Shown here one piece after another: positions 31,267 through 41,554 of a stretch of DNA of 57,244 bases. The notes under the pieces were generated by a model. The model saw only the letters and a program-made list of their open reading frames with translations, did not search any database and was not told the origin of the DNA. The position numbers were made by a program, and so were the translations under genes. Position 1 is the stretch's first letter. Each line of letters starts with the position of its first letter. The stretch is from positions 1 through 57,244 of IMG/VR virus record IMGVR_UViG_3300044838_000003; one strand, given 5' to 3'. This DNA comes from a virus.

Positions 31267-31457
31267 CGGAATCCTATCCTCTTGCCTTCTTCGTAGTAGG
31301 GTTCCATGCGATCGGCTCTGAGAGGCTCTGTGTCGCGTTCAAACGCGCCGTTGGTATGAGTAGACCCATTCCACTCCGCTGACGAGTCAGCGTAGAGCGT
31401 GGGGGCTAGTTCTATACCGAACACCTCCGTCCCGAGGACGGAGATGCTCAGCCTCAC
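31263..31457 (-). CDS. Small tail-region protein, 64 aa
   Basis: Starts at GTG overlapping the stop of the large distal tail gene (GTGA), ends in the start of the next. It begins VRLSISVLGTEVFGIEL, beta-rich. Such small frames between tail-tip genes are usual in this phage group; role unknown. Confidence 0.6.
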   Translation of the reverse strand: MRLSISVLGTEVFGIELAPTLYADSSAEWNGSTHTNGAFERDTEPLRADRMEPYYEEGKRIGFR

Positions 31458-33445
31458 TTCTTTACACCCCACGGACGAGAATACGGCCGGGGAATCCGGA
31501 GGGTCACCATCTGACCCTCGACGGCCCCCGTCACCCGGATGTGGAAGTCCATCGCTCCGGTCCACTTGGGGATGTGGTTCTTGAACCTCACCCCGTTCAT
31601 CCGCGCCCACAGGGCGCTACCGGACTCTGACTTGACCTGCTCGACTCTGGGATCAGAGTCGATGAGGGCGTTCTCCGCGGGCGCTGTCGCGCCGTCGCGG
31701 ATCGTGATAGCCTCGATGTTCACCCCAGAGCCACCGGTTAGGGTGGAAGAGTCGGGAATGACCAACGGTACATCGAGACCGGAGATGTTCTGCTGGAACT
31801 CGATGATGTACGGCCACTCGCCCTGTACGTCGGTCAGGATCGTCGCACTCGGGCTGACGCCGCCGACCAGCGAGGCCGGGTCGATCGTGAGCTGCGGGAC
31901 GTTTACGCCCGCCTGGGTGCCGCCGAAGCGGATCGTGTACTTGGTGTTACCCTCGGTCGTGGTGTTGACCTGCATCCCCACCATCGCCCCGCCAGTAAGG
32001 TGGGTCGTGTCTACGGTGACCTGATTCTGGTTGATGCCCGCGACGTTGCCGCCGACGAACGTCAGCCGGAACGGCTGGTAGAGCTGGAAGAATCCGTCTT
32101 GGGTGACCACGATCTGGAAGACCCCGACGTTGGACAGCGCGCTGAGCGCGTTGCTGATGTCCAGAGCCGAGCAGTTGTAGGCTAGATGCCCGGTGGTCTG
32201 ACCGTTGAACGTGATGGTCCAATACCCGCCTGATGGCTCGCCAGTAAAGCTGATCGTCTGGACCTCGTTTGTAACCTCCGTCGCCTCGACGGAGATGTCG
32301 AAGAATCCCAGGTTGGGGAGCAGGCCAAGAGCGAGCTGAACGTCGTAGGGCCCGAGCCACGGCACGATCGGCGCCGTGAACTGACCATCGAAGCCCAGCT
32401 TATACGAGCCACCGGTAGGACCTCCTGTGAGGATGTACTCTTGTACCTCGTTGACCGGGGTACCGCGGGTGACGTTCACGTCGTTCACCGTCAGGTTGGG
32501 CAGAGCCTCTAGGGCCGTCTTGAGCGCCGCGTCGGTGATCGTCGGGCTGAGGTGGCCCGTAACCTCTCCGTCGAAGTCCAGAGTCCAGTAACCACCGGTC
32601 GGGTGGGCGTCACCCTTGATGGTGACGCGCTGGACCTCATTCGTCCGCAAGCCACCAATCAGGGAAGGCATTTTCAGCCTCCGGTCCACCGTACCGTTGT
32701 CCGGGAATGTCTCCGTATCGAGGTTGTAGTCCGGAAGTGTCCAGGTCACAGCAGGGCTGTTGGGTGCGCCTAGCCACGGGATACCGGGGACATAGGGCTC
32801 GGCAGGAGGGAGGGTACTCCCCGGTGCTGTCCACTTCGGGAATACTCCGTCCTGGTCGGTCGGGTTAGCGTGCGGTACCGAGATGGTCAGCTCCTCGAAA
32901 GGGAGCGTCTCCTGCGGCCACGGCCACGGTAGTGGGTTGGGGTCGAACGTGGTGTCGGTCGCCGTCACGGCCGAGAAGATAGCATCCTTCTCGTACCAGA
33001 ACGGGTCGCCGGCGATCAGGTGGATCGTCGCCTGATTGATCAGCCCGAGGTTCGGGTCGGTCTTCAGGTCCACTTCGTACTGCTCGCCCAGCCGCGCCTT
33101 GAGGACGCGCTGCGGCCACTCGGGGTGGGTGATCTTGATGAGCGAGTCGCGGTTGTAGTCGAACATCATCCGCAGCTCGGAGTCCCGGTAGGCCCAGGAC
33201 TCGTCATCGTCGTCCAAGATCCAGATCGGGAGTATGATGTCCCGTCGTAGAATCCTGTGTGACAGATAACGAGCCCCAGGCCAGTAACCGGGCTCTTCGT
33301 AGACAACCTTGGCCTGAGCGTCGTAGAGCTGCTGCGGGTCGGTGGCGAGGACGTAGCCCTCGTCACCCCAGCCTTCACCAGCGATGGTGATGTGCTTCCC
33401 GTTTGAGCCGACGATCTCAACGATGGTGTCGCGATTGATCGACAC
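31454..33445 (-). CDS. Distal tail protein with repeated Ig-like modules, 663 aa
   Basis: Starts at GTG with AGGAGG. The first 180 residues form a siphovirus distal-tail-type domain (ITHPEWPQRVLKARL, IHLIAGDPFWYEKD). Residues about 270-585 are three copies of an N-half module (EVQ-x-[IV]-x-G-x-P-[ST]-G-G) followed by three copies of a C-half module (x-G-x-x-[AV]-G...LTGG). Half-modules A and B also occur once each in the capsid and tail tube. It probably surrounds the tail tip at the end of the tube. Confidence 0.8.
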   Translation of the reverse strand: MSINRDTIVEIVGSNGKHITIAGEGWGDEGYVLATDPQQLYDAQAKVVYEEPGYWPGARYLSHRILRRDIILPIWILDDDDESWAYRDSELRMMFDYNRDSLIKITHPEWPQRVLKARLGEQYEVDLKTDPNLGLINQATIHLIAGDPFWYEKDAIFSAVTATDTTFDPNPLPWPWPQETLPFEELTISVPHANPTDQDGVFPKWTAPGSTLPPAEPYVPGIPWLGAPNSPAVTWTLPDYNLDTETFPDNGTVDRRLKMPSLIGGLRTNEVQRVTIKGDAHPTGGYWTLDFDGEVTGHLSPTITDAALKTALEALPNLTVNDVNVTRGTPVNEVQEYILTGGPTGGSYKLGFDGQFTAPIVPWLGPYDVQLALGLLPNLGFFDISVEATEVTNEVQTISFTGEPSGGYWTITFNGQTTGHLAYNCSALDISNALSALSNVGVFQIVVTQDGFFQLYQPFRLTFVGGNVAGINQNQVTVDTTHLTGGAMVGMQVNTTTEGNTKYTIRFGGTQAGVNVPQLTIDPASLVGGVSPSATILTDVQGEWPYIIEFQQNISGLDVPLVIPDSSTLTGGSGVNIEAITIRDGATAPAENALIDSDPRVEQVKSESGSALWARMNGVRFKNHIPKWTGAMDFHIRVTGAVEGQMVTLRIPRPYSRPWGVKK
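31709..32638 (-). repeat. Ig-like half-modules, A-A-A-B-B-B order
   Basis: Coding repeat in the distal tail gene. N-halves start at the codons for EVQRVTIKG, EVQEYILTGG and EVQTISFTGE, about 62 residues apart. C-halves with LTGG or LVGG ends follow, about 42 residues apart. Copies differ in sequence, so they are not recent. Confidence 0.75.
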
Positions 33446-33486
33446 TCTGCCTCCTGCTCTGTGCGTGGCTGTTACCACGGCCTCGC

Positions 33487-36400
33487 TTAGTTGCTACGCT
33501 GCGTGTGTTCCATAGACTCGCGAGTCTTCACCCGCTCGTAGTTCTTCATGGTCCCGTCGTGGTCCATCGACTGGAAGTTGTAGGTGTTTCCACCTTGACC
33601 GCCACCGAAAGCACCTTGGGCTACGCTGTTCACCGCCGAGGACAGGAAGCCGATGCCGTAGTCGGCCAGCTTCTCTACGGCTCCGTTGCCGCTCATCCCG
33701 AGGTCGGTCTGTAGCTGACTGACGTTGGCCATCGCCATGCCCTTCAGCGCGTCCAGTCCGGACGCAAGAGCCTGCGTGATCATCGAGGCAGCCTGCGAGG
33801 TCGAGTCGGAACCCGAACCCTTGCCGCCGAACTGCGAGTTGTACTTGGACTCCTTCGAGTCCAGGCCCAGCTCCGTCCGGAGATCCTGAAGCTGCTTCAT
33901 CTGGGCTTGGATACCCGCACGGCCGGTCTTGTCCTTGGGGTCGAGAGATTCCTTTGACTGCTTCAGACGGTCGTACTGGATACCGATCGCCTGTAGCTCA
34001 CGACCGATCTGACCCTTCAGTTCGGGCGACACTACGCCGCTCTCCTGCATGGTCTCGGAGACCCGCTGAGCAAGCTCCTGGGCCTTGGAGACGACGCCTT
34101 GGAAGCCTTCCGACATCCCGTCGTCAAACCCCTGAGCGAAGTCCTGTCCGGACTTGTGCGACTTCTTGGAGGGCGAGTGTGCGTCGATACCAAACGGACC
34201 CGCCAGGGCCGCAGCGACACCGCTACCGAGGGCCTGAGCCGCCGCTAGAGCGGCTGGCGCCGAGGCAGCTATACCGCCAGCCAGACCAGTACCCAGAGCA
34301 ACACCAGCGGCGTTACCCGCTGGGCCGAGCCCTTGTAGGCTAGCCTGAATCTGTCCGACCATCGCGGAGATGCTGCCGTTTACCTGACCCGCCGCCGCCT
34401 GCGTAGAGGCGATCAGCGGCTCCCAGATCTTCTCGCTACCCGGAGGTAGCTTGGGGACCTCGATCTTCGGTGCTTTTATCTCGCCCTGAGAGCCCCCAGG
34501 AGCGATCGGAGCGACCGGTGCGGGTGGATGTGGCTGGATCGGGTTACCAGGGCCTCCTGGGAACAACCCGGCCGTACTAGGACCCTGTACAATCTGGACG
34601 GGGACCGGTGGTGAGCCGGGAGCCAGAGGCTTACCGGCGTTGAACGGCTCGGGGGCCGCGTTAGCGGTCGGCGTACCGCCGCCTAGCAGCATCGAGATCA
34701 GGTTTCCACCGATGGTCTGTTCGGTGACGAACTTCTTAGCTCCGTCGAACATGTGGCCGAGGAAGTCCTTAGCCTTATCACCGATCCACTGAACCGGGTC
34801 GTCTACGAACCCGACCTTTTGGTTCATCGCCTCCTCGTGGGTGACGGGTACCGCGGGAGAGCCAGCAGTAGGACCGGGCTTGGTACCGTAGGGGGCGTTC
34901 GGGTCGGGCTTGTCCGAAGACGGGATCAGCTTCAGTATCGTGGCTAGACCCTCGAAGACCGGACCCATCCGAGCGACCTGCTCGGCTAGGTGCTCTAGTC
35001 CCGTCAGGAAGTCGGTGATACCGCGGATCAGGTTGGGATCGCCCGCGAGCTGCAAACCCTTTTCCAGCAGGTTTCCAACGAAGTCCTTGATGCCGTTCAG
35101 CACCGGCTTCATGTTGGAGATCGCGGTATCCAGCTCCGAGCTACCGGGGACCTCCTTGCCAAACCAGTCCTGCTTCGGCTTGGAGATCTTGCCGACCCAG
35201 TTCTGGAACTGACCAGCCCACTCGGTCATGGTGTTGGCTAGACCGGGGAGGTGGTCTCCGACGTTGACGATCAGGTTCGACATAGCCGACGTGAACAACT
35301 GCAACGCGGGGGAGAGGTTGGTCAGCATCGTACCGACGCTGTTCGTGAAGCGGTCGAAGCCTTCGGTGAACGCGGGGGTAGCTAGGACGTTGCCCAGACC
35401 CTCTGCCATCTTCACGAGGCCCTGTGCTACGAACGGCAGACCGCGGGTAAGCTGCGGGATGACGCCGGCAATCTGCTGGAAGACCGGCTTCAGGCCGGTC
35501 GCGAAGACATCCGAGACGTTGGTCTGTAGCTCGCTGAGTACGGAGCCTAGGCCCTGCTTGGCCTTGCCCTTCGGCTTGCCGTCCTTGTCGAACTTCTGCT
35601 CATCCTTGAGGATACCAGAGTCGTCCAGTGCCTTCTTCACGCCCTTGAAGCCCAGCGCGAATACGCCAAGCGGTAGAGCGAAGCCAGCGACCAGCGCGGG
35701 CAAGCCGACTAGGGCCTGCGATACCAGAGCTAGGGCGGGAGCCAGCAGCGACAGACCGGCGACGATGATGCCGATCGAGCCGAATGCGCCCAGCCCACCG
35801 ATGTTGGGTACCAGGTCGGGGGCCTTGAAGTTGCTGATGGCGTTACCGCCGCGGTCCATCAGGCGGCTGAGGAAGTTGCCCTGCTTTTGGTCACCCAGGT
35901 GCTTGTTGAATATGCGGTCTAGGTCACCCTCAGCGGACTGCATCAGGTTGTGGAGGGACGCCTCATCACGCTGCATCTTCACCTTGATGGTGAAGTTCTC
36001 GTGGGCCAGGCGCAGCCGCATCTCTTCGATCTCGTGCTCATCCATACGTGGCTTGAGCTGGATACGCTGCTCCATGTCCGCGAGGTCGCGGCGTGCTTGG
36101 GCCTGCGGCGACCACTCCCGCATGGTGTTGGCTAGGCGCTGTTGGGCGCGACCGATGTCCAGCGACTCGTCGGTCAGGAACCGGTCGATACGCTTCTTGG
36201 CGAGGTCGAGCCCGAACGTGTCGGCCTCAACCTTGATCTTGATCTTCTCGCCCAGCTCGGCCTCTTTGGCTAGAGCGTGGACCTTCGCACGGAGACCCTT
36301 GCCATCGGCGTCGAGGTCGATCCGCATGTCGTACTTCTCGTTGGTGACCTCTTCGATCTTCCGACGAGCCTTGCTGGTATCCGCGTCAACAGGTACCTCG

Positions 36401-36519
36401 ATGTCCTTGCCAGCGCCTAGGGCGCCAGCCCGGACCTCTTCGCGGAAACCCGTCATGTCCGGGACAACGCGAATCGAAAGGCGTCCTACTTCCTTGTCGA
36501 TCCCGGCACCACTAGCCAT
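33487..36519 (-). CDS. Tape measure protein, 1010 aa
   Basis: The longest gene of the late unit, right after the frameshifted chaperone genes. Long helical N-terminus (AEADTF..., KKRIDRFLTDESLDIGRAQQ), a central hydrophobic region (LSLLAPALALVSQALVGL, GLPALVAGFALPLGVFALGF), Gly/Ala/Pro-rich parts and a helical end. It sets tail length; about 1010 residues at 0.15 nm per residue gives roughly 150 nm. No peptidase domain was seen. Confidence 0.9.
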   Translation of the reverse strand: MASGAGIDKEVGRLSIRVVPDMTGFREEVRAGALGAGKDIEVPVDADTSKARRKIEEVTNEKYDMRIDLDADGKGLRAKVHALAKEAELGEKIKIKVEADTFGLDLAKKRIDRFLTDESLDIGRAQQRLANTMREWSPQAQARRDLADMEQRIQLKPRMDEHEIEEMRLRLAHENFTIKVKMQRDEASLHNLMQSAEGDLDRIFNKHLGDQKQGNFLSRLMDRGGNAISNFKAPDLVPNIGGLGAFGSIGIIVAGLSLLAPALALVSQALVGLPALVAGFALPLGVFALGFKGVKKALDDSGILKDEQKFDKDGKPKGKAKQGLGSVLSELQTNVSDVFATGLKPVFQQIAGVIPQLTRGLPFVAQGLVKMAEGLGNVLATPAFTEGFDRFTNSVGTMLTNLSPALQLFTSAMSNLIVNVGDHLPGLANTMTEWAGQFQNWVGKISKPKQDWFGKEVPGSSELDTAISNMKPVLNGIKDFVGNLLEKGLQLAGDPNLIRGITDFLTGLEHLAEQVARMGPVFEGLATILKLIPSSDKPDPNAPYGTKPGPTAGSPAVPVTHEEAMNQKVGFVDDPVQWIGDKAKDFLGHMFDGAKKFVTEQTIGGNLISMLLGGGTPTANAAPEPFNAGKPLAPGSPPVPVQIVQGPSTAGLFPGGPGNPIQPHPPAPVAPIAPGGSQGEIKAPKIEVPKLPPGSEKIWEPLIASTQAAAGQVNGSISAMVGQIQASLQGLGPAGNAAGVALGTGLAGGIAASAPAALAAAQALGSGVAAALAGPFGIDAHSPSKKSHKSGQDFAQGFDDGMSEGFQGVVSKAQELAQRVSETMQESGVVSPELKGQIGRELQAIGIQYDRLKQSKESLDPKDKTGRAGIQAQMKQLQDLRTELGLDSKESKYNSQFGGKGSGSDSTSQAASMITQALASGLDALKGMAMANVSQLQTDLGMSGNGAVEKLADYGIGFLSSAVNSVAQGAFGGGQGGNTYNFQSMDHDGTMKNYERVKTRESMEHTQRSN

Positions 36520-37505: not shown

Positions 37506-38399
37506 CTAGCTCGGCACGGGGCCGATCAGGTCGTTGGAGATCCAGTCGTACAGACGCCGAGTCCCCAGGTTCAGGAACGCTGCGCGGATCGGTAGAGACG
37601 AGAAGTCATCAATCGGGATTTCCACCGCGGCGTCACGAGCGATGCTCGCCTTGCTCGCGTAGCAACCCAGGTTGACTTCCTGGTCCACGAGGACCGTCAG
37701 GAAGCTCTTCTCGACGGGGGTCCAGTCTCCGGAGACACCGAACACGCCATCGGTCTCTGCGACATCTGCACCGAAGTACAGTTCCAGAGTACGGCGGTTC
37801 CACTGCTCAAGCTGAGCCTTCACCGAGTCCTCGATGGGCTGAGAGCCCCAGACCTGACGCAGACGCTGCTTTTGCCAAGAGCCCTTCATCTCAAGCTTGC
37901 CACCCTCGTAGCCAAACTCAGGAAGCTTGGTACGGCTTGAGTGGCCGAGGTTGATCCAGCCGTTGGCGGCGGTGGGCGTGGTGATCGCGACTGCTGGCGT
38001 GGTGCCACCAGTCAGGCTGGCCGCGGACCCGGTGACCACAACGGTCTCTCCGAGCAGAGCGCCAGCGAACGCGATGTCCAGCCCAGATCCGTCGCTGAGC
38101 GACGTTCCGGTGACCGTGGTGTTACCAGCCCCGACCGAGGCGAGAGCCTCGACAGCGGCCTGCACAGCGGCCTTGCTGGCGTTGTAGGCAATTCCGGCCG
38201 TGGTGTCTCCACCGACCGTCAGGGTGAACGTGCCACCCGTTGGTGTTCCGGTGATCTTGACCTTCGTGACCTGACCACCGAAGGTGGCGGCGTCGAATTC
38301 GTCAATCTCATCGGGAGTCGGTGCAACCGCTCCGAGGGTATCGTTGATGTAGAGATACCCAGTAGCGGCGACAACAACTTCGCTGTCATCGAGCGACAT
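37506..38399 (-). CDS. Major tail (tube) protein, 297 aa
   Basis: Position between the tail terminator and chaperone genes and a strong terminator after it mark the tube protein. Residues about 43-142 hold an inserted Ig-like module (VKITGTPTGG, IAYNASKAAVQAAVEAL, SLTGGTTPAV) of the type found in the capsid and distal tail protein. The rest is the tube core (WINLGHSSRTKLPEFGYEGG). The module should stand outward on the tube surface. Confidence 0.85.
   Translation of the reverse strand: MSLDDSEVVVAATGYLYINDTLGAVAPTPDEIDEFDAATFGGQVTKVKITGTPTGGTFTLTVGGDTTAGIAYNASKAAVQAAVEALASVGAGNTTVTGTSLSDGSGLDIAFAGALLGETVVVTGSAASLTGGTTPAVAITTPTAANGWINLGHSSRTKLPEFGYEGGKLEMKGSWQKQRLRQVWGSQPIEDSVKAQLEQWNRRTLELYFGADVAETDGVFGVSGDWTPVEKSFLTVLVDQEVNLGCYASKASIARDAAVEIPIDDFSSLPIRAAFLNLGTRRLYDWISNDLIGPVPS
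37974..38273 (-). repeat. Ig-like module in tail tube gene
   Basis: Codes about 100 residues inserted near the N-terminus of the tube protein: one A-half (ITGTPTGG) and one B-half (SLTGG). Shared with the capsid (40373-40633) and the distal tail protein. Confidence 0.7.
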
Positions 38400-40369: not shown

Positions 40370-41554
40370 CTACGCAGCCGCAACCACGGCGTGAGGTGAA
40401 GTTCCACCGGTCAGGGTGTTGTCCACGCCGAGCGAGATGGTCGCAGGCGACACGATGAGCCCGGAGGTCACGGTAACGTCGGCAGCGAGGATGCTGTCGT
40501 CCACGGCGACGATCGCGGCCTTGATGGCAGCGTCGTTCGCGTTGAAGGCGATCGCGGCAGTCGAGACGCCGTTTACCTTCAGGGTGTAGGTACCACCGGT
40601 CGGTGCGCCAGTGATCGTGAGCTGGTAGCTCAGCGGTCCATCGACCAGCTTGTAGAACGCGGCAACGTCGTTGATGAGCAAACCGAACTCAGCTTCGACC
40701 AGGACCGCGACCAAGTTGTGCTGCCAGAGCGAGATGAACTCGGGGGTGTCGAGAGTCCCGAAGTTCAGGGTGGCCTGATCGGAGACCGAGTAGCTAAGCC
40801 CGCCGACCTGTCCCCAGACGATCTGGTTGAAGTCACCAGCGAAGCCCAGGACGTTGCCAGAGGCAACGGTCTCGGCCAAGATGGACGGACGGCCGACGAT
40901 GCGGCCTTCGCGGTTGACAGGGTTCTCCTGCGAGAACGGGCTGTCAATCCACAGAGGGCGACCGTTGTTGTCGTAGGACCCGTTCAGGATCGGCTCAACG
41001 GTATCGTCCAGCAGAGTCGCGGTCCACTTCTTGTGGTCATCAGCAAGGGCCCGTAGACCGCGCACCGCGGTGGCGTCGTACAGGTTGTTGTTGATGGCGA
41101 CCGTCTTCGTGGTCTCCGCGAGGTAGTGAGCGAACGGGCTGTCCACGCCGTACAGAACGGCCTGGTCGAATGCCTGACCGATCGCCGTGGCGACCTTGGT
41201 CCGCATGACGTTCAGGTAGTTGGCAGGGTTCGCCCGCACAACTTCCGAGGACGCCGTGAAGATGGTGGCAATCTTGTGGGGGACCACAGTCTGCTTGCCG
41301 AAGTTACCCTTGGTGAGGGGCTTCATTTCACCTTCGCCGACCCATCCGGCACTGACATCGCCAGTCCAGTGGGGGATCTTGACGCCTGTAGCGCCCATCG
41401 GGATCTTGCGAGCGAAACGCTGCACGATCGAGGTCTTCTCCGCGAGAGCGAAGTAGTCCTGCGCCTGCTCGGGGTCGAGGTAGCCCTCGAACATCGTATC
41501 CCCAGTCTGGGCGATACGGCTGTCGTTGGCACCGGCCAAGTGTCCGGTTGTCAT
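40370..41554 (-). CDS. Major capsid protein with C-terminal Ig-like module, 394 aa
   Basis: HK97-type capsid: N-terminal helical start, VQRFARKIPMGATGVKIP, SEVVRANPANYLNVMRTKVA and FGLLINDVAAFYKLVD. Residues about 308-394 form an extra Ig-like module (LTITGAPTGGTYTLKVNG, IAFNANDAAIKAAI, NTLTGGTSPHAV), which would decorate the capsid surface. Preceded by scaffold and protease-like genes. Confidence 0.9.
   Translation of the reverse strand: MTTGHLAGANDSRIAQTGDTMFEGYLDPEQAQDYFALAEKTSIVQRFARKIPMGATGVKIPHWTGDVSAGWVGEGEMKPLTKGNFGKQTVVPHKIATIFTASSEVVRANPANYLNVMRTKVATAIGQAFDQAVLYGVDSPFAHYLAETTKTVAINNNLYDATAVRGLRALADDHKKWTATLLDDTVEPILNGSYDNNGRPLWIDSPFSQENPVNREGRIVGRPSILAETVASGNVLGFAGDFNQIVWGQVGGLSYSVSDQATLNFGTLDTPEFISLWQHNLVAVLVEAEFGLLINDVAAFYKLVDGPLSYQLTITGAPTGGTYTLKVNGVSTAAIAFNANDAAIKAAIVAVDDSILAADVTVTSGLIVSPATISLGVDNTLTGGTSPHAVVAAA
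40373..40633 (-). repeat. Ig-like module in capsid gene
   Basis: The last 87 codons of the capsid gene: one A-half and one shortened B-half of the module seen in the tail tube and distal tail genes. Confidence 0.7.

Follow-up and report, generated by a model that had tools for sequence, protein, structure and literature searches.

Three A and three B half-modules in a distal tail protein of a mycobacteriophage-like virus, probably arranged by recursive insertion

The distal tail protein and its described relatives

The distal tail protein (DTP) of phage Bxb1 is gp23, to which a preprint ascribes 'three additional CTE-like domains'. Ig-like domains on the capsid and tail tube of phage Douge attach to glycans of the mycobacterial surface (PMC13033339). 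In SI3 of the RNA polymerase beta' subunit the nesting of domains reaches six levels (PMC13114784).

The DNA analysed here (the window) is an IMG/VR virus record of 57,244 bases. It encodes a 674-residue protein on the minus strand (31454..33478), assigned by phmmer, PHROG and AF2 as a distal tail protein (Dit/DTP) homologous to Bxb1 gp23. Phmmer matches it to the Bxb1 gp23 "tail tip cage" (PDB 9d93, chain 9d93_Ma) with an E-value of 7.8e-164, and its PHROG matches are PHROG 106 (minor tail, E-value 1.7e-75) and PHROG 33 (Dit, E-value 1.3e-4). The AF2 full-length model (mean pLDDT 72.9, pTM 0.44, insert blocks mostly 66-91) resembles Bxb1 gp23, Douge gp17 and SPP1 Dit. The ORF is preceded by a tape-measure-like ORF of 1010 residues (33487-36519), and the protein has the core sequence, the fold and the gene position after the tape measure of a Dit/DTP; the phage is probably a siphophage of the mycobacteriophage-like kind. 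Alignment with module-free homologues divides its core into an N-terminal part, residues 1-278 (32645..33478, minus strand), and a C-terminal part that begins at about ENALIDSDPR, residues 597-674 plus the stop codon (31454..31690, minus strand).

Six half-modules in one loop of the core

The insert between these parts consists of three A halves followed by three B halves, all on the minus strand. Half A1 (residues 280-339, 32462..32641), A2 (residues 343-400, 32279..32452) and A3 (residues 404-461, 32096..32269) score 38.2, 27.2 and 45.5 bits respectively to an independent A profile, compared with a best score of 8.1 bits in 500 shuffles of the insert. Half B1 (residues 468-510, 31949..32077), B2 (residues 512-553, 31820..31945, the putative partner of A2) and B3 (residues 555-596, 31691..31816, the putative partner of A1) score 10.9, 11.0 and 13.2 bits to the B profile, where the best of 500 shuffles reached 10.3 bits; a single B half taken alone barely exceeds chance, and the conserved register is the main support for these halves. 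The single A-B modules from which both half-profiles derive come exclusively from other proteins, namely capsids, tail tubes, a sheath and one-module distal tail proteins. Translation and these profiles together bear out the claim of an earlier note on this DNA that three A halves are followed by three B halves in the distal tail protein, and its span (31709-32638) agrees within about 20 bases with that found here (31691-32641).

The order is a stable one. Among 131 distinct ORFs with matches, 68 read AAABBB and 46 read AB, and none has the order ABAB. All 68 of the distinct long homologues scored have A-A-A-B-B-B, with one further reading AAAABBB. In that case, a single metagenomic homologue, a 17-residue direct repeat lies within A3 (LTFDGQTTQPIPWNAGP twice), either real or an assembly artefact. 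In the Bxb1-type protein and two related proteins, B1 is lengthened by a partly hydrophobic stretch of about 28-50 residues that is absent from the window.

Homologues aligned on the common core carry no module (Tomathan, 336 residues), one A-B module (DirtyDunning, 446 residues; Heliosoles, 457 residues) or three (Bxb1, 685 residues; Sheen, 659; Timshel and SWU2, 660; the window, 674). The insertion site is the same in all of them, a core loop between LIGGLR and AENALIDSDPR, so that homologues with and without the inserted domain exist for this host site. A three-module form differs from a one-module form by a complete A-A-B-B set inside the outer halves. In a spread of 60 records over 1472 matching phage records, the distal-tail spans fall near 1000, 1350 and 2030 bases; none lies near 1670 bases, the span of a two-module form, and no such form occurs among the 131 ORFs. 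Halves A1, A2 and A3 are each 46-52% identical across phages and 39-42% identical to one another; because each A half is closer to its counterparts in other phages than to the other A halves, the triple arrangement is older than the split between these lineages. From trees of the halves, neither the order in which modules were inserted nor a link between A1/B3 and the one-module form emerged.

In capsid, tail tube and sheath proteins the two halves stand next to each other as a single module. As the earlier note had it, the window itself holds the module both in the capsid C-terminus and in the tail tube, each as a single contiguous copy. One lies at the C-terminus of the major capsid protein (40373..40633, minus strand; P0001 match, PHROG 10909 with E-value 3e-17, and alignment) and the other near the N-terminus of the tail tube protein (37959..38279, minus strand; P0001 match and alignment with other tail tube proteins). 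The halves of the insert belong to this A-B (CTE-like) module of Bxb1-type phages, which is present in only 10 of the 396 genomes sampled from the phylum. Its position in the tail tube varies, being near the N-terminus in the window (ORF 37506-38399, minus strand) and in a Segniliparus tail tube protein and at the C-terminus in Bxb1, while the tail tubes of Sheen and Heliosoles are without it. The capsids of these two phages are also short (329 and 332 residues, compared with 394 in the window and 397 in Bxb1, a gap of about 65 residues), which is consistent with absence of the C-terminal module, yet the distal tail protein of Sheen is a three-module one.

No Pfam or NCBIfam model detected the module here, a single-protein scan of viral contigs with P0001 gave no relatives, alignments being required, and the tail-tube module alone gave no matches as a tblastn query, for which low-complexity filtering is possibly responsible. 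'Ig-like' is a label from the earlier note and from the literature on related phage surface domains; each A half contains a helix in the AF2 model of the insert, and the PDB fold matches listed for that model include no canonical Ig domain. Homology to Flagellin_IN is not supported by sequence: the PDB profile search gave neither flagellin nor FliD chains, and Pfam scans of the protein and its module-bearing relatives gave no Flagellin_IN. The fold search with the insert model also gave a BFVD match to a 222-residue 'minor tail protein' of phage Zenon; the 221-residue minor tail proteins of phages Blinn1 and Blue7 are collagen-like and without the module.

Pairing of the halves and growth of the insert

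The arrangement is best explained, with a probability of roughly 0.83, by recursive insertion at a single loop of this protein, all in one chain, written A1(A2(A3 B1)B2)B3. A surface loop of the core would have hosted a small A-B module, in which A is strands-helix-strand and B about three strands, and further copies of the same module would have entered at the seam where A meets B. The innermost A3 and B1, which form the only contiguous A-B unit in the insert, would then be complete in themselves, B2 would complete A2 and B3 would complete A1, giving a three-domain arm from a single chain. We infer both the A1:B3 and A2:B2 pairings and the growth by recursive insertion.

Structure models are in keeping with this. 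The AF2 model of the insert alone, made with 17 sequences, has a pLDDT of 88.3 and a pTM of 0.75, and it superposes on Bxb1 gp23 chains 9d93_Ma, 9d93_Mc and 9d93_Md with TMq 0.76-0.77 and an rmsd of 4.0-4.3 A over 332-338 columns; the predicted monomer is thus in agreement with the solved homologue. A contiguous unit of the model fits the Bxb1 tail-tube module 9d94_Jb over 102 columns at 3.0 A with 28% identity, and is taken to be A3+B1 because no other A-B of the insert is contiguous. Single-module matches to the Bxb1 tail tube (9d94_Jb and 9d94_Jh) span about 102-107 columns at 3.0-3.3 A, and BFVD tail proteins give similar ones.

These models also bear on a parallel or crossed pairing in one chain (A1:B1, A2:B2, A3:B3; or A1:B2 with A2:B3), which would set three domains side by side. 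Such a pairing ranks first in a distance-correlation test of half-by-half distances with the core trend removed, the sums being 1.69 for A1:B1/A2:B2/A3:B3, 1.62 for A1:B1/A2:B3/A3:B2 and 1.36 for the nested pairing, in third place, though with 12 lineages and halves of 42-60 residues this test has little power. Precedents for exchanged strands exist in the HABAS domains recursively inserted in RNA polymerase, which sometimes swap them (PMC11515920), and in PAO1 flagellin, whose D2 and D3 have a strand in common (PMC10256154). However, A3:B3 pairing would not yield a contiguous unit that fits a whole single module at 3.0 A, and the strand-to-strand connectors of the insert model (A1|A2 6, A2|A3 2, A3|B1 9, B1|B2 2 and B2|B3 5 residues) are mirror-symmetric about A3|B1. 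This symmetry is expected from two-stranded links between nested domains and supports nesting, without being proof of it; parallel or crossed pairing is accordingly considered unlikely. Three modules interlocked within the chain by strand swapping or crossed pairing (for example A1:B1, A2:B2, A3:B3) are unlikely too; if true, they would represent a topology beyond simple recursive insertion.

Completion of the halves between the chains of a hexamer, by domain swap, would suit the six copies of the homologue in the Bxb1 tail tip, but the confident insert-only monomer prediction matches a single experimental chain at TM 0.77, so that pairing between chains is not needed and is very improbable.

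A second family bears on how the insert grew. The module search uncovered an LtfC-like protein (PF23926), the gene for which adjoins that of the terminase small subunit. It occurs as a core of about 106 residues without the module, as A-X-B of about 320 residues and as A-(AB)-X-B of about 432-453 residues, the last in Acolyte, a Segniliparus rugosus prophage and others. The two longer forms differ by one contiguous A-B inside the A...B frame. X may be a much diverged A half (hhalign E-value 0.016, probability 3%, in the right register), making the frame A-A'-B, but the extra A-B would still be contiguous; the change could be loss rather than gain. In both families the inserted unit is a whole same-family domain, contiguous A3-B1 here and contiguous A-B in the LtfC-like relatives. 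Separate duplication of A and B halves, each as its own folding unit, is the least probable explanation, since half order alone would be compatible with it but capsid, tail tube and sheath proteins carry A and B joined in one module, and in the LtfC-like family the two are gained or lost as a unit.

Of the possibilities raised in the earlier note, nesting is therefore favoured by the order, the shared site, the 0/1/3 series and the model, while pairing between chains is unnecessary. Growth by half-units is disfavoured, as relatives differ by a contiguous A-B (LtfC-like) or by a whole A-A-B-B (distal tail protein).

Implications and comparison with known systems

The A-B module seems to accept copies of itself at its own seam. 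It offers a countable natural series, with 0, 1 and 3 modules in the distal tail protein and 0, 1 and 2 in the LtfC-like family, and comparison of these relatives could test the evolution of nested multi-domain arms. Linear domain calls miss such proteins, which is a caution for annotators.

Going by its homologue Bxb1 gp23, the protein would supply six of these arms as a 'cage' around the tail tip, and the six Bxb1 copies suggest that they would project outward around it. It is speculative that they touch host cell-wall glycans, and a glycan-binding role is drawn by analogy only, because no Douge chain among the PDB chains matched the module profile.

Bxb1 gp23 (PDB 9d93) resembles the present protein in whole-length homology, in its A-A-A-B-B-B insert, in the insertion site and in the predicted fold of the insert (TM 0.77), and differs in being about 42% identical and in having roughly 28 extra residues in B1. 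The Bxb1 capsid and tail-tube modules (9d9w/9d9x and 9d93/9d94) share the A-B profile (E-values 8.6e-23 and 2.2e-19) and the fold, but each is a single contiguous copy appended at the C-terminus and is not nested. Flagellin and FliD D2-D3 show weak Foldseek similarity (8erm, 5h5w; TM about 0.2-0.3), and in Salmonella flagellin D3 is likewise inserted into D2 (PMC10256154); however, there is no sequence match and the strand order of PAO1 FliC differs. In RNA polymerase beta' SI3 (HABAS), same-family domains are inserted into each other within one chain (PMC11515920, PMC13114784), although domain and protein are unrelated to those described here and the nesting is deeper and partly strand-swapped. 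With such nesting already known, the idea of a new structure is not supported; with a relative's structure also solved, the arrangement is neat rather than revolutionary.
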